45,195 nucleotides of DNA, taken from IMG/VR virus record IMGVR_UViG_3300044712_000404, positions 1-45,195 of that record. One strand, written 5' to 3'. The stretch is from a virus. Below are positions 2,440-45,195 of this stretch, piece by piece. Position 1 is the first letter of the stretch. Each line of letters starts with the position of its first letter. Under the pieces are notes generated by a model that saw only the letters and a list, made by a program, of their open reading frames with translations, was not told the DNA's origin and searched no databases. Made by a program: the position numbers and the translations under genes.

Positions 2440-5400
2440 TCAGGGGGTACGGAGCAGCTCGTCGATCTGCTTCTGGAGGACCTCAGCCTCAGCCGGGCGC
2501 CCCTGCTCTAGGAGGGTGCTCTGCTGGTACATGAGAGCCTGACGCTGGGCCAGGTTGGGGTTGTCCTGCAGCATGGTCTGGAAGGCCTTGCGCTTGACCC
2601 CATTGATGGTCTTGACGATGGCCTTGTAGAAGGGTTGGTCCCGGGCCGTGCCGGAGTTGCCGGTGGCCTTCCAGGTCTCCAGGCCCACCTTCACGAACTC
2701 GTTGTTCTCGAAGAGGTCGAGCAGAGCCTCGGTCAGTCCTTCCTTGTGGAGGGCTCGGGCGAAGGCAGAGCGCTCGGCAGGTGCCAGCTCGCCGCCCCCG
2801 TACTTCTCGGTCAAGAGGGTGGAGCTGTCCCAGCCAGCCTCAGTCAGGTAACCCACGACCCGCTGCTCCTTCTCCTCGGGGGATCCCTTGGGGAAGGTCC
2901 CCTGGTGGATGTGGAAGGGCACGAAGGCGTTCCAGACACCCCCGCTGAGGGAGTGCTGCTCGATCCCAGAGAAGGGGCTCACACGGGACGGATGCTGCTG
3001 GTAGTAGCCTGGGAGGAGGTTGTCGAAGACCTTGTTGATGTGGCCCTCGATCTCCTTGGCCACCGGGTCGAAGGCACTCTTGAAGGCCTGGCGTTGGCCG
3101 GCCCAGGGGATGAAGCCGTTGACCATGGTCCAGAAGCCGGCGTCGATCGTCTCCATGGATCCGTCAGACCGGCCGTTCAGGAAGGATCCCAGGCCGGCCA
3201 CACCCTGGAGCATGGAGCGGTCCGTGATTGCCATCTGGAAGCCGAACATCAGCATGGCCTGGACCTTGTCAGCCTCGTCGTAGTGGCCCATCTTGACCAG
3301 GTCCGCGACGTCAGCTGCCAGAGACAGCCAGGCCTGCAGGGGGTCGATGGGGGCGTAGGAGACCCAGCCGAAGGGCGTGCGGATGGACTTAGGCTTGTGG
3401 GTCTTGAGCCAGAGCTGACGCTGAGGACCGGGCGGAGGACCGTTGCCGGTGATCCTGCCGTCGAAGGCAGCGATGGTGGCCGCAGTCACCGCCATGGCTC
3501 CCACAGCCTGCCGGCCCTCCATCTCAGCCCGAAGGACTGGATCGAATCCCTCGTCTCCTGGCTTCAGGCGCATGACACGCCGGTACCGTACGCTGAGGTT
3601 GTTCAGGACCGGCAGGAGCTCCCACTGGTAGTTCATCACCTCGCCGGGGGTGCGGACGAAGGGAATGACCAGACGCATCCAAGGGGCAGCGTTCAGGAGC
3701 ATCTCGATGGACTTGACGATTCCCCCAGGGTCACCCTGGAAGGTGGCCATCTTGGTGTAGTCGAACAGGTCCTGATCTTTGATCTCGAAGGTCTGCGGGT
3801 CAATCCTCGACTGCTTCATCTGGTCGTAGACCCGCTCGAAGTCAGCAGTTGTGCCTCCTTCATCGAAGGCCTTGTAGCTGGCATCCATGGCGATCTTGGC
3901 CCTGGACGCCACGACCTTGGTGAAGTCGTCGATGCCCAACATGAAGCGCTCGGGGAAGCTGCCAGCCCAGGACTGGTTGAATTTGGCCAGCGTCTCGAGG
4001 TACCGCAGGGCGACATCCTGGCCAGGCGTGAAGTCGGGGGAATCCTCGAGGATCCGCCGCATATCAGCCAGCTGGGTGTTGTTGGCCTGGAGCTCCACGA
4101 TGTACTTGGCGTCCGCCATCAGCCCCTCGTTCAGGGAGGCCGTGTCGCGGGCAACCTTCAGGGCGTCCCACAGGGAATCGGTGATCCCCCGGTAGGCGGC
4201 CATGCCGGCCTTCATCATCCGCACGTCACCCTTGAACAGGCCGCTCATGCCCGTCGCCACAGGTGTGGCCAGGAAGGAGTTGAAGTTGCCGGCTCCAGCC
4301 CGGATCAGGGTGGCGGTCCCAGACAGCACAGAGTTGTACCACTGGGTCATAGTGTTCTTCCAGAGGCCTTCGCGAATGAGGCTCCACATGGTCCGGGTCT
4401 TGAGGGGATCACCCCCAGCCATCACCAGGGCAGCCGCGATCTTCCGCATCTCGTCGGCGTACTCGGCCTGGTTGCCGAGGCGGAACGCTCGCTTGGCCTT
4501 CTTGGCCCACTGCTTCAGGCCTTCCCGGCGTGCCTTGTCCAGGTCCTCAGCGGACTGGGGGCTGCCATCCGGGCCAAACCGCTGGCGATTGACCTTCTTG
4601 GTGCCCCGGGCAGACTTGCCGGTGGCCGTGAGCTTGCCGGACCAGAGATCCCGACCCGTGATCTGCATCGTCATCTGATGCAGGTCATGGAGGACCATGA
4701 TCCGGTCGATCAGCCGGTCCGCCTGGTTGCCGGGCAGCTTCTGCGCCAGGTCGTCCTTGAGGAGGCCCCGGGACAGCTGGTAGATCTGGGCTGCCGTGTC
4801 GGTCACCATGGTCTTCAGGGCGACCACACCGATCGGGTTGAGCAGTTCTGCGCTGTCCACGGTCAGGGTGGGATCCTGGACCGTCTTCATGGCGCCGGCT
4901 TCCTGCAGGAACGCCAGGAACTCGTCCTTGTCCAGGGCCTGTACTTCAGGTCCCCGGAACTTCGTGATCACCTCGACCGCCTGCTCCAGGAGCTGCTTCT
5001 CGCTGAGGCTGCTCTCCTTGGCCAGGAGGGTGAGGGTCTTCTTCTCCAGGGTCTTGCGGAGGGTCCCCATCACCTGCTTCGTGGCCTTCGGGTCGCTGGC
5101 CATGATCTTGGCCGCCGCGTCCGTGTAGGTGTGGCGCGGGGCGCCCAGGTCGGGAGCCGTGGCAGGGGCCTTGGCCAGGCCCTCGGGGATGTCGGCCCTC
5201 TTGGCACCGGCGGGGACCTGGGTCTCCAGGCGAACCTGGTCCTTCAGGGCCTCGTCGGCTGGCACGGCCTCAGCGGATCCCCTGACCTCGTTGGGGGCCA
5301 GCAGGTCAGCTGGGGTGGCCAGCTCGGCCTCCAGCTCGTCCATCTCCCGGAGGACGCCCTTGAGTTCGTCGTTGACCCGCTTCAGCTCGATCTCGTCGGG

Positions 5401-29119: not shown

Positions 29120-31636
29120 TCAGCAGAACAGGTAGTTAGATTCTCGAATCTCAGCAGGATCCAGCGTGTTGATCATGACCTCGGGATCCACGGGGACCCC
29201 CAGCTGATCAGCCCACTGGGCGAGCTGGTCCGTCTCATACATCGTAGCAAAGGTTTCCCGGATGTGCTCCATCGTCCAGCCAACATCGCACGAGAGGGTG
29301 CTGATGCAGTCGTGGACCAGGGCGATCGGCCGGTCCCAGTCCGAGAAGGCCAGGTGCAGCAGGGCCGCGTCGAAGCTGTGGATCAGGTTGGGAACAGAGC
29401 CGATCGTGATCTTGCGGCCGTCCAGGGGAGCCGAGTCCGCGTCAAAGTCGCTGACCGTGACCCGGATGCGGCGGCCCAGCAGCCTGGTGTCGACCTGCTC
29501 GGTTGGGTAGACCCGCTTCTCCAGGATGACCGGGAACCCGCTGGGGCTTGTGAACGCCACGGGCCGGCCTGTCTGGTTGGCCACGAGGTTCACGCTGTCC
29601 TGGATCCACTTACGTGCCCTCATGGGGCCGGGGAGCACCTCGGGGATGGCCTTCACGTAGACCGCATCGACCAGGTCCTTCATGGGGATCCCGTGCCCCT
29701 TGGGGAGGGCCTGGCGCAGGTAGTCCTTGGCGCTCTCACGGGTCAGCCCGTAGGGTAGGCACATGACCACCCGCTTGGTGACCTTCCTGGTGATCAGGTC
29801 TCGGAACTCCTCGGGGAGGTACTTCTTGGCTGCTTCTGCCACTGTCTTGTAGGCATCGGCGGGTCGCTCGGTGGGAGCAACGTTGACCAGCTCAGCGGCC
29901 CCGCGATCCCGGGTGAGGGCTGCCAGGTGCTGGAGCCCGGAGCAGGTTGCGTCGAATCCGACGAGGAGGTTGGACCAGGAGCGGGTGTAGGCAATGAAGC
30001 AGGCATGATACTCGAGGCAAGCAGCGAGGAACTGCCAGGGCTCATCGGCCCCCTGCCAGGTGCTGATGGTGCCCATGGGGTCGGTGGCCACAGCCTGGAT
30101 GACCCCTTGGGAGGCCCTGACCCACTCCTGCCTCTCCTCCAGCGTCTCCTTCCCCAGCCCCCAAGTCGTGGCCACCTGGAACGCCAGCCACTCCTGGTCA
30201 GCCGGCCCGGAGTAGGCCGACACCAGCAGCGAGCGGGCAAAGTCCGTCCCCTGCGGGGTGAGGTGGTTGGAGAGTGGGTAGACCCTGGCCCTGAAGTCGA
30301 AGGACCACGGGAACCAGAACGACTCCTCGTCCCGGTACATCTGGGCAATGAACAGCGTCTCTGCCGTCTGGTAGTTGCGCTGTGCCAGGAGGGCGTTGTC
30401 CTCCTCGACCTCGACCCGGGCCCGCCGGTACTTGAGCTTCTCCTCGTCCGTGGCGGTGTCCCAATCCGGCTTCTCGGGCAGGGGGAGTGGATCCGACTGC
30501 CGGAACGAGCCGATCGACACCCGAGCCTCCTGACACCTGAGGGCAACCTCCAGGACTCCCTGGTTCACCTGGAACGGGACCTTCTGGATCGCGTTCAGGA
30601 AGCGGACCGGGACCGTGAGATCGGGGACCCCCGGATTGGGTCGACACCTGGCATGTTCAGGATCAGAGCTGGATGCCTGGGCGAGAGGGGGGAGAGGACA
30701 AGCTATAGCTGGTCTATTTGATGGATTCTCCTCTCCATCCCCAGGACTCCAGGGGGCGGCGGTTTCGCCCCGTCCCTCTATACGAGGAAAGCTCTGAGAA
30801 GCCTTGCGGTGACTGAGGCCTCGGATGAGCCTCGATCCGACCCCAGAACGCAGCTCCTGGGTCAGGTAGCCGCCGGCAGGAGCGGTGAGATCCGGCTGCC
30901 AGTCGTTGGGCTCGCAGAGCATGGGCCAGCGGCAGGCTGAGACGGCCTCCGCGGCTGCCAGCATGGCGTCGACGGACCTGATCACCTCAGGAGCCGGGTG
31001 GAGCAGGGTCAGCTGGCGTTTGCGGCTTGTGACCGTCCTGCTGCTGTGGAACCAGCCCGTGGCCTCGCACAGGCGGTCCAGGAGCCAGGCTCCGACCTTG
31101 ACCTTGTGCCCGGTGGGCCACTTCAGGGCCTCGTGGGATACCCGGCGCATGGTCGCCCGGTATTTGGCCACCCGGTAGCTGTAGCCCTTGGCCTGGTGGA
31201 TCTGGGTCTTGTGGAAGGCCTCCGGTTCGGCCGCTGCGAACTGGCTGAGCAGGCACTCGTCGTAGACGCGGCCGCCGATCTGCCGGACCACGTCCCCGTA
31301 GGAGGCCCCATGCTTGGCCTGGCGCTTCTCGAAGACCACGTCGATGGTGGTCTTGAGCACGATCAGGGCCAGGGTCGAGGAGGGGATCCCGTCCATCAGC
31401 TGGACGTGGGCCGCGAACTCACCGGTGGAGCCGGCGGCGATGCGGCTGCGCTTCTCCTCGATGGCGGCGATCGTGGCCCCAAGGCCCTGGTCGACCAGCT
31501 TGTTCCCATAGATCGAGCTCGAGGCATAGACGCGGGCCTCGGCCTTGGCAGTCGCCTCCTTCAGGCGACGGATGCCCTCCTGATGGGCTTGGAGCTCGCG
31601 GGAAAATTGGCGAGAAATCTGGAGGGAAGTTGCCAT
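29120..31636 (-). CDS. Single-subunit DNA-dependent RNA polymerase (T7 gp1-like) with an in-frame insert
   Basis: The protein has 838 residues, against 883 for T7 RNAP. The three catalytic motifs are present: FDATCSGLQHLAAL (motif A Asp, about 560), RKVTKRVVMCLPYG (motif B Lys and Tyr, about 613-626) and LVHDCISTL (motif C Asp, about 775). An upstream landmark is PMLCEPNDWQPD with GGYLTQELRSGVG (about 240-270). Between this and RFLNAIQKVPFQVNQ (about 342) lies an extra, low-complexity Pro/Ser/Arg-rich segment of about 65 residues that T7 lacks. A promoter-like element lies inside it. The start overlaps the upstream gene stop (TAATG). It transcribes the middle and late genes. Confidence 0.95.
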   Translation of the reverse strand: MATSLQISRQFSRELQAHQEGIRRLKEATAKAEARVYASSSIYGNKLVDQGLGATIAAIEEKRSRIAAGSTGEFAAHVQLMDGIPSSTLALIVLKTTIDVVFEKRQAKHGASYGDVVRQIGGRVYDECLLSQFAAAEPEAFHKTQIHQAKGYSYRVAKYRATMRRVSHEALKWPTGHKVKVGAWLLDRLCEATGWFHSSRTVTSRKRQLTLLHPAPEVIRSVDAMLAAAEAVSACRWPMLCEPNDWQPDLTAPAGGYLTQELRSGVGSRLIRGLSHRKASQSFPRIEGRGETAAPWSPGDGEENPSNRPAIACPLPPLAQASSSDPEHARCRPNPGVPDLTVPVRFLNAIQKVPFQVNQGVLEVALRCQEARVSIGSFRQSDPLPLPEKPDWDTATDEEKLKYRRARVEVEEDNALLAQRNYQTAETLFIAQMYRDEESFWFPWSFDFRARVYPLSNHLTPQGTDFARSLLVSAYSGPADQEWLAFQVATTWGLGKETLEERQEWVRASQGVIQAVATDPMGTISTWQGADEPWQFLAACLEYHACFIAYTRSWSNLLVGFDATCSGLQHLAALTRDRGAAELVNVAPTERPADAYKTVAEAAKKYLPEEFRDLITRKVTKRVVMCLPYGLTRESAKDYLRQALPKGHGIPMKDLVDAVYVKAIPEVLPGPMRARKWIQDSVNLVANQTGRPVAFTSPSGFPVILEKRVYPTEQVDTRLLGRRIRVTVSDFDADSAPLDGRKITIGSVPNLIHSFDAALLHLAFSDWDRPIALVHDCISTLSCDVGWTMEHIRETFATMYETDQLAQWADQLGVPVDPEVMINTLDPAEIRESNYLFC
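30758..30794 (-). promoter_or_regulatory. Promoter-like element inside the RNA polymerase gene, copy 1
   Basis: On the minus strand this reads GAGCTTTCC, TC, then GTATAGAGGGAC, with a G-rich start and the hairpin GGCG-AAAC-CGCC immediately downstream. The core resembles the T7 sequence TATAGGGAGA. It matches copy 2 at 37064-37100 in 32 of 37 positions, and the outer base pair of the hairpin is swapped in a compensating way (G-C here, C-G there). The element lies within a coding segment that T7 RNA polymerases lack. Confidence 0.6.
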
Positions 31637-36909: not shown

Positions 36910-36933
36910 TAGCTTCATGAAGCTCTAGAGCTT
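36910..36933. repeat. 24-nt direct repeat, copy A (two overlapping palindromes)
   Basis: It is identical to 37031-37054 and consists of AGCTTCATGAAGCT overlapping AAGCTCTAGAGCTT, with a leading T. The two copies are 121 bp apart. They might be binding or RNase-processing sites. Confidence 0.9.
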
Positions 36934-37030: not shown

Positions 37031-37054
37031 TAGCTTCATGAAGCTCTAGAGCTT
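37031..37054. repeat. 24-nt direct repeat, copy B
   Basis: It is identical to 36910-36933. It lies ten bases beyond the promoter-like element on the minus strand, so it would be transcribed into the 5' leader. Confidence 0.9.
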
Positions 37055-37063
37055 TCGGGTGGG

Positions 37064-37100
37064 CGCGGTTTCGCGCTGTCCCTCTATACCTGGAAAGCTC
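37064..37100 (-). promoter_or_regulatory. Promoter-like element in the terL-downstream spacer, copy 2
   Basis: On the minus strand it reads GAGCTTTCC, AG, GTATAGAGGGAC, then the hairpin CGCG-AAAC-CGCG. The core resembles a T7-type promoter around the start site. It directs transcription toward the acidic, 34-aa and glycine-rich genes. It shares 32 of 37 positions with copy 1 inside the RNA polymerase gene; the hairpin differs by one compensatory pair. Confidence 0.68.
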
Positions 37101-37304: not shown

Positions 37305-39122
37305 TCAGCGCGTCCTAGAGCCAGCCCGGACCCTGGCGCTCACGTTCCCCCCGTGCCTGGGTCGATCTGTGCGGACCTGAGCCAACTTCTGAGCCTGCGT
37401 GGCCAGCCTCTCCCGGACCCCCACCAGGACCAGCTCGTCCACGAACCGAGTCGGGTCGTCCTCGGCGGTCCTGAGCATGCTCTGAAAGGCCTCCTGGCTG
37501 AGCTTCTTGCTCTCCTCGAACTGGCTCACGTTGAGCCGGTCCGTGAAGTATGCGACCGCTATCGCCAGGGCGTCCACCCGGTCGTCATGCTTGAGGGCTC
37601 CCTTCTCCCGGCAGAGCCTGGTCATCTGGTAGGCCAGGGTCTTCTGGAGCCGCTCCTCGAGGGGCAGGTCCTGGTTGGACTGCAGGTCATACTCCACCAC
37701 GCCCCGGTCGATGATGAGCCTGTGTTGGGTGGTCACCGGCTCGAGTGCATCCAGGATGCGGTCCTCCTTCCGGACAAAGGCCCTGGTCTCCTCGAAGGAC
37801 ATGGGGATCTGGAGCTCCCGGGCGTGCTTCTGGAGCAGGGCGACCACGGTCCCGTCCCCGAAGTTGCTCTCGACCAGGCACAGGGTGGCCCCATACTGCC
37901 GGCCGATCTTGAGGATCGCCGTAAGCGTCTCGTCCGAGTAGCCCTCCCTGAACCCTCGCATGGCCCTCAGGTACAGGTTCCCGGCCACCTGGCTGACCAC
38001 GACCACGCCTGTCTCGTCCTTGCCCCGGCCCGAGGGATCCACGGCCACGATCGTGTCGGCAGGCCAGTCCAGCCAGTCGTCGCCGAGGCGGGCAGGCCGG
38101 TACCAGTGGTCGCCTGGCAGGCTGATGGCTTCCAGGTCTCCGATCCGGTTGTTCTGGTCTGCACTCCACACCACGGTTCCGGGACATTTCCGGGGATCCA
38201 AGCTGACAACTGGACAGTCGGCCAGCCTCAGCGGGTACCTGAGCAGGTCAGATAGGGATGTGTCAAGCATGAACTGCAGCTGGAACGCTGCCTTGCCCAT
38301 GACCGTCTCTCGTTCCCGCAGAAGACGATCGGAGAACCGGGTATCAGTGGGTTGGCCTGCAAGAGCCTCGATCCCGTGCTCTTCGATGTCTGCCTGGAGC
38401 TCCTCAGCCAGCCTTCCTTCGTAGCTGCTCAGACCTTCAGCGGTTGGGTAGCGACCAGGCCACACGTAGGGGGCGTATCCTCGAACCTCCAGCTTCTTGT
38501 AGATGGTGAACAGCGACTGTGGGGTCCCAAGATAGAGAATCTTAGAAGTCGTATCTGGAGTAAGAATTGACTCAAACTCAGTGGTCAAATGAAGTAATTT
38601 TTCTCTCTGAACATCAGTGGATGAATTACCTGGGTTTTCAATATCGTCAGCCAAGATTAGTGTGGCACGGCTACCTGTCATGGCGCTCGTAATGCCTACT
38701 GACTTGACTGAAGGGGATTGAGCAGGCTCGCACCCAGCAACATCGAAGGCTACCCGAGACCAGCGATTGTCTTTACCGCTGTTATCCAGGTGCTGGAGGA
38801 AGGGGAAGTCACCAATACACCTCTGGATAAAGAGAGACTGGTCGTCTGCACGCTGCTTCGATGCGGATACAATCAGGATCTTTTCGTTGACGTTGTTATA
38901 CAGCCGCCACATCACATAAGCAGCCGAGATCCAGCTTTTGCCAACACCCCGAAAACCACTAAGCTGCGCACGAAGAGGGCCATGCTGCAGGTAGTTGGCC
39001 ATCCCTAGCTGAGCTCTAGTAGGTTCCGGGAGTGACAACGACCTCCATAGGATCCGAAGAAACACAGTGAAGTCTGTCTGCAGTTTGCGCTGCAAGAGCT
39101 CTGGCGAGAAGGAGGAGTTCAT
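37305..39122 (-). CDS. Large terminase subunit (T7 gp19-like)
   Basis: The protein has 605 residues, against 586 for T7 gp19. The ATPase has Walker A SGFRGVGKSW (about 56-65) and Walker B-like ATLILADDIENPG (about 154-164). The nuclease acidic residues are in VDPSGRGKDETG (about 358), ESNFGDG (about 416) and HDDRVDALAI (about 512). The N-terminus (TDFTVFLRILWRSLSLPEPT) aligns well with T7 gp19, so this start is trusted even though the HNH gene overlaps it by 107 nt. It packages DNA into procapsids and cuts the concatemer. Confidence 0.97.
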   Translation of the reverse strand: MNSSFSPELLQRKLQTDFTVFLRILWRSLSLPEPTRAQLGMANYLQHGPLRAQLSGFRGVGKSWISAAYVMWRLYNNVNEKILIVSASKQRADDQSLFIQRCIGDFPFLQHLDNSGKDNRWSRVAFDVAGCEPAQSPSVKSVGITSAMTGSRATLILADDIENPGNSSTDVQREKLLHLTTEFESILTPDTTSKILYLGTPQSLFTIYKKLEVRGYAPYVWPGRYPTAEGLSSYEGRLAEELQADIEEHGIEALAGQPTDTRFSDRLLRERETVMGKAAFQLQFMLDTSLSDLLRYPLRLADCPVVSLDPRKCPGTVVWSADQNNRIGDLEAISLPGDHWYRPARLGDDWLDWPADTIVAVDPSGRGKDETGVVVVSQVAGNLYLRAMRGFREGYSDETLTAILKIGRQYGATLCLVESNFGDGTVVALLQKHARELQIPMSFEETRAFVRKEDRILDALEPVTTQHRLIIDRGVVEYDLQSNQDLPLEERLQKTLAYQMTRLCREKGALKHDDRVDALAIAVAYFTDRLNVSQFEESKKLSQEAFQSMLRTAEDDPTRFVDELVLVGVRERLATQAQKLAQVRTDRPRHGGNVSARVRAGSRTR

Positions 39123-43090: not shown

Positions 43091-44446
43091 CTATACGGTG
43101 AGTTGTTGAATGAGGGATTGAACCGTGCCACCAGGGAACAACATCAGCCGCCGCATGGCACTTCTGGCGATGTTGCCCGCCTGATTCCGCCCCACGAACA
43201 TGCGGTCAAACGTCGGCACGGTACCGCTCGTATCGGTCACTGGAACGCCGCCGTTAACGGAGATGGCGAAGTTGTTGGCCTCAAATGCGCAGGCAGCCTT
43301 AAAGATCGTTCCCGCCGATACTGTGCCGCCATCAATGCTGGATTGGCTTACTCCGCCATCCACCACGTTGAAGACAGGATCAGTGCCGCTGGTGATCAGC
43401 TCCAGTCGTTCATTGGCGGTGTTGTCGTTCAAGCTGATCAGCCCTTGTGTGCCACTGGCAAGCGTCGAGCCTTCAATGTAGATCACTCCAGCCGTGGTGC
43501 CGGTTAGTCCAAGAACGCTGAAGGTATCCGCGCTGCGGGTGACAGCTGAGCCGGTGGTGATGATTGGAGAGGTTGGGACTAACCCCTGCTCAAGCTGCGA
43601 GACCCACCCCTCAATCACACCAACGCTAGTGGAAGCTCCGATTGTGTCGTGGTGCAGGATGTTCTGAATCTGCGTAAGAGCAGAGACCAGTGTTCCCGAT
43701 ACCCAAACCCTGAACCATCCATTGCCATAGGGGATAATCCCACTGTTGACACCCGTTGCCGTGCCGAAGACCGCTTGCGACACATCAGCGGTGCCGGTTA
43801 GGAGGTCAAACCGGTGGCTTCTGAATCCGTTGCTCCCTGTATTATCCTGCACTGTGCAGATAACGTAGCGTTCGGATACGTACTTGACGAACCACGACCC
43901 GCAGTACTGGCCAGTGGTGGTGGTGTTAAAGTTATTTCTGACCCGCTTCAGCGCACTTGCGGAGCTTACTGGCGTGCTTGTCCACGAGGTTGTGATGCCA
44001 TCAAGAGCAGTATTAACTCCTTCCGCGTAAGTGTTTGACGCAACGCTCCAGCTACCTGCAATTGGCTGGTGGCTTCTGCTGATGTTATTGGTAGCTGCCG
44101 GATCGTGCACATACTGCCAAACCCCATTGACCAGCTCAAATCCCGGCACATCAGCTGGGAACTCCTCAAACTGCGTACCGTTCCAGCACAGCTTGGATGA
44201 GCTAGGGCGGGTGAAGGTTGGTACAACCCCTACTATCCTGTCGACAATTGTGCGGCGAGTGAAGTCGATGTCCAGGGCAGGGACTTGTCCAGCCAGGGCT
44301 TCTAGGCCACTGCGATCTACGCCAAGGGGATAGGCTTTGGAGGTGGCACTGGACCCCCGGTATCCCCCCAGGATCTCTGCATCGTAGGCTGCCCCGGACA
44401 GGGGGTTGTTGAATGGTGCAGCCCGTGAGATGTTGACTGCTGTCAT
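43091..44446 (-). CDS. Large virion adhesin with concanavalin-like/LamG-type domain
   Basis: The protein has 451 residues. The N-terminal part (AAPFNNPLSGAAYDAEILGG and LCWNGTQFEEFP) may anchor it to the tail. The middle (about 110-290) has NISRSHQPIAGSWSV and GWFRVWVSGTL, which recalls carbohydrate-binding beta-sandwiches, and the bridging motif VPTSPIITTGSAVTRSAD is common in phage fibre proteins. The C-terminal part (about 300-440) ends in FERMFVGRN-like LamG-type strands (FDRMFVGRNQAGNIARSAMR). The base composition is lower in GC than the core genes. A host-recognition role is likely. Confidence 0.72.
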   Translation of the reverse strand: MTAVNISRAAPFNNPLSGAAYDAEILGGYRGSSATSKAYPLGVDRSGLEALAGQVPALDIDFTRRTIVDRIVGVVPTFTRPSSSKLCWNGTQFEEFPADVPGFELVNGVWQYVHDPAATNNISRSHQPIAGSWSVASNTYAEGVNTALDGITTSWTSTPVSSASALKRVRNNFNTTTTGQYCGSWFVKYVSERYVICTVQDNTGSNGFRSHRFDLLTGTADVSQAVFGTATGVNSGIIPYGNGWFRVWVSGTLVSALTQIQNILHHDTIGASTSVGVIEGWVSQLEQGLVPTSPIITTGSAVTRSADTFSVLGLTGTTAGVIYIEGSTLASGTQGLISLNDNTANERLELITSGTDPVFNVVDGGVSQSSIDGGTVSAGTIFKAACAFEANNFAISVNGGVPVTDTSGTVPTFDRMFVGRNQAGNIARSAMRRLMLFPGGTVQSLIQQLTV

Positions 44447-44757: not shown

Positions 44758-45036
44758 TCAGCGTTTCCGTTTCACCGGCTTCTTAACTGCGTTGTCACCG
44801 GCACCATTCCTGGCCCGGTTCTTGGCGGGGGACTCGAGCACCATCCGACCATCAGTCGTGTGGCTCAGGTCCATCCCCCCCTTGCCTGCAATACCCCGGC
44901 GCCGTCTCTCTGCCCACCGCGCTTCGGAGGCCGCCTTCACGGACGGCTTCTTGTTGAGCTTGCGCTGGTAGGCTGATTTCTTGGCGGCTGCCTTGGGGTT
45001 CTTGGCGTAGTATTTTGCGGACTTACTCTTTGCCAC
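44758..45036 (-). CDS. Small basic conserved cyanophage-type protein
   Basis: The protein has 92 residues, with a GTG start at 45036 that overlaps the preceding gene by 14 nt. The N-terminus (AKSKSAKYYAKNPKAAAKKS) and the middle motif GKGGMDLSHTTDGRMVLESP followed by KNRARNG are, from memory, widespread in small proteins of cyanophages. It is strongly basic and probably binds nucleic acid or is a minor virion protein. It directly precedes an HNH gene, an arrangement also known from other phages. Function not established. Confidence 0.7.
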   Translation of the reverse strand: MAKSKSAKYYAKNPKAAAKKSAYQRKLNKKPSVKAASEARWAERRRRGIAGKGGMDLSHTTDGRMVLESPAKNRARNGAGDNAVKKPVKRKR

Positions 45037-45195
45037 GGCCGTTCTCCAGAAGTTGACGGAGCAGCTTGAGCTCCTCGTAGATCTTGTCCTCCAGGCGGAT
45101 GTCTCGCGTGGCGTTCTGCTCGAGACCAGCCTGTAGGGCCTTCGTGTCGGACTGCAGGGAGGCCACCTGGATGAGGAGTCCGATCGTGGTGATGC
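45023..45195 (-). CDS. Small TM plus coiled-coil lysis-type protein, 3' part (5' part at the left contig end)
   Basis: These bases carry the C-terminal 57 codons or so of the gene that starts at 188 on the minus strand near the left end. The TAA stop is at 45025-45023. Bases 45069-45195 repeat positions 1-127. The full product is 77 residues and ends KLLRQLLENGRGKE. See the entry at 1-188 for topology and role. Confidence 0.75.
   Translation of the reverse strand, partial: ITTIGLLIQVASLQSDTKALQAGLEQNATRDIRLEDKIYEELKLLRQLLENGRGKE
45069..45195. repeat. Right copy of the 127-bp direct repeat at the contig ends
   Basis: It is identical to positions 1-127. See the left copy. Confidence 0.95.

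Follow-up and report, generated by a model that had tools for sequence, protein, structure and literature searches.

The window, by which we mean the whole 45,195-base stretch of DNA analysed here, belongs to a T7-like phage that is related to the cyanopodoviruses and whose genes lie on the minus strand. It encodes a T7-type single-subunit RNA polymerase of the cyanopodovirus type (Table 1), and the open reading frame of this polymerase (31636..29120) runs without interruption over all 838 residues, as the earlier sequence-only reading had stated for the segment discussed below. A megablast search with the right half of the window against cultured phages gave no match. An exact direct repeat of 127 bases is found at positions 1-127 and 45069-45195, as from a circular assembly. 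Judging by phage Syn5, the physical ends of the genome probably lie near 36.7-37.3 kb.

Table 1. Genes, candidate promoters and predicted RNA structures at the two loci in the window.
Feature	Position	Strand	Basis
Single-subunit (T7-type) RNA polymerase gene, 838 aa	29120..31636	minus	PHROG 414 E=9e-179; tblastn to cyanopodovirus RNA polymerases; PDB match to T7 RNA polymerase
In-frame insert, residues 274-335	30632..30817	minus	Alignments with relatives; linker between N-terminal domain and thumb; flanked by T7 residues about 287 and 318
Second, longer leader stem within the insert (predicted)	30669..30752	minus	RNA folding of copy 1 and relatives; similarity to downstream part of copy 2
Hairpin GGCGAAACCGCC, predicted 5' end of promoter-1 transcript	30758..30769	minus	Folds in all copies
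Candidate phage promoter copy 1, GCTTTCCTCGTATAGAGGGAC	30772..30792	minus	Exact two-copy pattern; site homologous to Syn5 promoter
5' hairpin GCGCGAAACCGCGC of the predicted promoter-2 transcript	37063..37076	minus	RNA folding
Candidate phage promoter copy 2, GCTTTCCAGGTATAGAGGGAC, noncoding	37078..37098	minus	Two-copy pattern; equivalent of Syn5 promoter just after terminase
Terminase large subunit, directly upstream of promoter copy 2	37305..39122	minus	PHROG 38 E=1e-96

The polymerase carries an in-frame insert, whose limits were set by comparison with 23 cyanopodovirus polymerases of about 777-789 residues. The sequence-only reading had placed it at 30600-30830, which is close, and the alignments narrow it to the limits given in Table 1. 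Among the relatives inspected, polymerases outside the clade with the insert have a linker of about 20 residues at this site and no extra segment. The segment had also been thought to have no counterpart in T7, which does not hold, as T7 has about 30 residues (288-317) between the same anchors compared with 86 in the window. An AlphaFold2 model of moderate quality (29 sequences, mean pLDDT 72.6) matches T7 RNA polymerase structures overall and has a pLDDT below 50 across residues 252-337. In this model the insert is thus an unstructured loop within the linker that precedes the thumb.

Within the insert lies one of two copies of a promoter-like element. The sequence GCTTTCCnnGTATAGAGGGACnnnGCGAAACCGC is found exactly twice in the 45-kb genome, at 30759-30792 in the insert and at 37065-37098 in noncoding DNA (0 expected), and GCTTTCCNNGTATAGAGGGAC exactly twice in the window, at 30772-30792 and 37078-37098 (0.01 expected). 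A longer pattern that includes GCGAAACCGC likewise has exactly two occurrences in the window, with 0 expected. The two copies have a 43-nt block in common with 84% identity, and a comparison of the insert with the 9 kb upstream gave a top repeat score of 26, while the maximum among shuffled sequences (n=60) was 16. These exact two-copy patterns confirm that a promoter-like element is embedded in the in-frame polymerase insert. Transcription from copy 1 would probably start at the G after TATA. Copy 2 is positioned about 205 nt past the stop of the terminase large subunit, compared with 0-6 nt in Syn5, P60, P-SSP7 and S-RIP2. No sigma-70 promoters were found in the window between 29000 and 37400.

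Two further motifs were found near these copies. CCAGCTATA, at 30704-30712 on the minus strand, is a conserved part of the insert in most relatives (exact in the window, L001, L002 and L003, and present as CCAGCTATC in L103). It was considered as a promoter and rejected because the window has the exact motif only once. In the noncoding DNA after copy 2, an exact palindrome-rich repeat of 24 nt, AAGCTCTAGAGCTTCATGAAGCTA, occurs twice on the minus strand (36910-36933 and 37031-37054).

The promoter of Syn5 was identified experimentally, and one phage promoter serves more than 37 kb of genes in this phage (PMC3950665). The Syn5 promoter ATTGGGCACCCGTAA is found at position 4929, at polymerase codons 269-274 between LIR and LNNLQ, which is the site of the insert in the window. 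A second ATTGGGCACCCGTAA is found at 44797, just past the terminase gene, which ends at 44791 (5 nt after). Because an experimentally identified promoter is located at homologous polymerase codons, the earlier suggestion of a self-regulating promoter inside its own gene is supported by homology. The Syn5 promoter sequence itself has no match in the window within 3 mismatches. As the candidate promoter of the window is wholly unlike that of Syn5, we infer its activity by homology, from position and pairing.

The same pairing was found in other cyanopodoviruses. In P-SSP7, S-CBP42, S-RIP2 and P60 the strongest repeat that the polymerase gene shares with the genome lies in the corresponding linker, and in P-SSP7, S-RIP2 and P60 its partner is positioned 0-6 nt past the terminase stop. 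The terminase of S-CBP42 is unannotated, and the repeat partner lies in the gap where the terminase should be. The repeat pairs of P-SSP7 and S-CBP42 are AACCCCTACGTATACAGGGG and CATCTGGCCCATGTAAGCAGGGAGA. Among the metagenomic loci with at least 7.6 kb of upstream sequence, 15 of 16 have the top repeat in the 60-75-nt linker of the 2.3-kb polymerase gene. One additional locus with 5.3 kb upstream (L022) also has the repeat in the linker, which makes 16 out of 17 metagenomic cyanopodoviruses. In the distant relative L079, whose polymerase locus is cyanopodovirus-like and has 8 kb of upstream sequence, no repeat pair was detectable, and a different arrangement is possible there. Loci with short upstream sequence mostly have no repeat, as expected if the partner falls outside.

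The copies are 88% identical within a genome, a value that is biased upward because metagenomic second copies were found by similarity, and 50% identical between genomes (0 of 20000 permutations). Independent support for the pairing comes from the annotated references, where the partner lies beside the terminase. The two copies thus change in step within each genome. Judged from these sequences, the intragenic site appears to be used for a promoter across the whole cyanopodovirus group. In the openly accessible literature covered here we found no statement of this conserved intragenic position, and we make no claim of priority.

In two scans of IMG/VR we recovered relatives at about 75% identity (L001, L002 in genome G001, L003, L102 and L103) and the fragments L004, L005 and L104. 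All of these closest IMG/VR relatives carry the insert, whose length ranges from 46 to 86 codons across six complete genes. Over the insert, L004 and L005 are identical to L002, and the insert peptide of L104 is that of L102. When viral contigs were scanned for the exact pattern, only five contained the upstream part of the element, all of which belong to this clade.

The coding frame through the insert is open in six lineages, the other two forward frames contain stops, and the insert length is always a multiple of three. The chance of finding no stop is 0.05-0.22 per lineage by dinucleotide shuffling, and an open frame by chance across six lineages, which are related, is unlikely. This constancy of frame bears on the earlier idea of a spliced or processed RNA segment, which is not supported. 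A self-splicing intron or otherwise excised RNA with an incidentally open frame would fit the strong predicted RNA structure (z -2.1) and the combination of DNA-level conservation with variable length. Besides the frame, however, the Rfam search argues against it, with no match at the gathering threshold and no credible match to any known RNA, group I and group II intron models included, at the relaxed threshold. Moreover, the core of the insert recurs at the noncoding promoter position, and its site is the promoter site of Syn5. Taken together, excision from the RNA is very unlikely. The insert was also considered as a tRNA and a tRNA search found none.

The DNA of the insert, and not its peptide, is conserved. 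The codons over GCGAAACCGC are GAA-ACC in the window, L001 and L102, and CGA-AAC-CGC in L002, L003 and L103. In L001 (L001:2365-2454) the upstream half of the promoter element, with AAGGCTTCTCAGAGCTT(T/G)CC, has a tandem duplicate of 70 nt inside the polymerase gene. This length is not divisible by three, and the duplicate is read out of phase with the first copy. The insert might instead be under selection for its peptide, as a binding loop for instance, with the promoter-like DNA as a by-product. It is indeed always translated, and its start, SHxKxSxSFP, is conserved among relatives. On the other hand, the remaining peptide is hypervariable and modelled as disordered, the noncoding copy of G001 also has most of the bases that encode SQSFP, and the reading frame changes both over the hairpin DNA and in the L001 tandem copy. 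We regard selection for the peptide as very improbable. The sequence-only reading had named two patterns that would contradict it, conservation of the segment as protein and absence of the extra residues from relatives. Neither was found: relatives carry the residues, and the DNA is conserved across frames.

Most promoter copies of the cyanopodoviruses are followed by a hairpin, with a mean z of -1.7 for the coding and -2.0 for the noncoding copies. In the hairpin, the outermost base pair is G-C in copy 1 of the window and in L001, and C-G in the other copies, which is a compensatory change.

Other structures were seen after the noncoding copies. In 15 cyanopodoviruses the noncoding post-terminase promoter copy is followed by a hairpin with the invariant loop GTGGTG and the 3' motif TGTGG..GCG (L101:44808-44852, L108:42015-42058, L106:26996-27039 and 12 IMG/VR loci). 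All of its 8 pairs are 100% paired and 6 of them have compensatory changes; its covariation score was reached by 0 of 500 shuffles. This hairpin may be a short conserved phage RNA, and in that form it was not seen in the window. A hairpin that resembles a terminator, with a T-run, was seen by eye after the noncoding promoter copy in P60 and S-CBP42. A terminator scan past the second promoter of Syn5 found none under the rule of the tool.

The second promoter copy is visible in two genomes of the clade only, the window and G001. In G001, which has the same promoter pair, it is located around position 44939, near the contig end and after a long open frame ending at 44420. The G001 copies resemble each other past the promoter on either side, upstream as well as downstream (0 of 500 shuffles in each case). 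Between the window copies, similarity past the promoter is found downstream and is weak (6 of 500 shuffles), and the upstream extension of the cassette, present in G001, has no similarity between them. This similarity beyond the promoter points to, but is no proof of, enlargement of the insert through recombination with the noncoding copy.

Alternatively, the extra DNA could be a selfish palindromic element comparable to the Rickettsia palindromic elements, which insert into genes in frame. The insert is in frame and palindrome-rich, and has a noncoding relative in the same genome. In contrast to a dispersed element with many copies at varied sites, there are two copies per genome, as in the window, always at the two sites that hold promoters in phages without the insert. 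We consider a selfish element very improbable. The related proposal of a mobile promoter cassette that landed in frame holds in part: the insert does resemble the noncoding post-terminase cassette, clearly in G001 and weakly in the window, whereas the presence of only two copies at an old promoter site does not fit a random landing.

Thus the segment is very likely a promoter of the phage polymerase with leader hairpins, placed at an intragenic site used across cyanopodoviruses. Under this explanation, the host polymerase would first make the full-length polymerase mRNA from early promoters, and the phage polymerase would then initiate at the internal promoter and read all downstream replication and structural genes. 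Transcripts from the internal promoter would be without the first 285 or so polymerase codons, so that the polymerase would be cut off from self-amplification by that route. The copy just after the terminase would be the second member of the promoter pair. By analogy with the leaders of T7 gene 10, the hairpins probably protect the 5' ends of the long transcripts. In this clade the promoter region was probably enlarged by the recombination described above, and the extra DNA would be translated as an unstructured loop accommodated in the flexible linker. An N-truncated polymerase, which had been suggested as a product of the internal promoter, is not needed by this explanation and we found no positive evidence for it.

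The element could also be mainly a replication origin or priming site that uses the promoter, and not a switch to late transcription. The primary origin of T7 lies just downstream of gene 1, and the element is positioned akin to it, at about 14% of the genome from the post-terminase promoter. The transcription of more than 37 kb from a single promoter in Syn5 (PMC3950665) speaks against this as the main role, which we consider unlikely. The analogy to T7 makes a role as an origin possible, and such a role is compatible with the element being the main promoter. As a plausible though still tentative scheme, the fixed cyanopodovirus site would have coding and noncoding copies kept in concert by recombination and would serve as main promoter, as shut-off of its own gene and possibly as replication origin, with the cassette of this clade copied in and domesticated as a disordered loop.

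With the repeat pairs found here, the single experimental case of Syn5 becomes a proposed positional rule, namely a repeat of 20-25 nt common to the polymerase linker and the bases just past the terminase. Such a rule supplies promoter candidates where prediction from the polymerase is difficult. In a phage polymerase screen of 2024, promoter prediction was described as the critical limiting factor (PMC11475235), and the generic promoters that it predicted for P-SSP7 and S-CBP42 are not those of the repeat pairs above. Another screen left out coding sequence by design (PMC13029058). The insert itself would be a promoter cassette tolerated as protein, in which the bases are kept and the reading frame is changed.

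Palindrome-rich DNA tolerated as an extra peptide in a gene is known from the Rickettsia palindromic elements, which the insert resembles in this respect. Unlike them, the element in the window is not dispersed and is bound to a promoter site. T7 has the same type of polymerase, and the promoter core in the window resembles that of T7 in having TATA and then the starting G. The layout is analogous too, as one promoter is close to the polymerase gene and another close to the end of the genome. To our knowledge, none of the T7 promoters (phi OL, phi 1.1A and others) is located at the intragenic site found in the window. T7 has about 15 promoters in total (PMC3950665).

A promoter inside the phage polymerase gene is already known from Syn5, while the enlarged insert with promoter, leader hairpins and frame switching appears to be peculiar to this clade. 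Syn5 has two promoters only, and the window likewise has two candidate promoters; each is followed by a hairpin, one in the polymerase gene at homologous linker codons and one after the terminase large subunit, which is the Syn5-type architecture. The promoter sequence differs between them, and we treat it as non-defining since it varies between phages. Finally, the Syn5 promoter is found in a short linker of about 20 residues, whereas that of the window is found in an insert of 62 residues with further leader structure.
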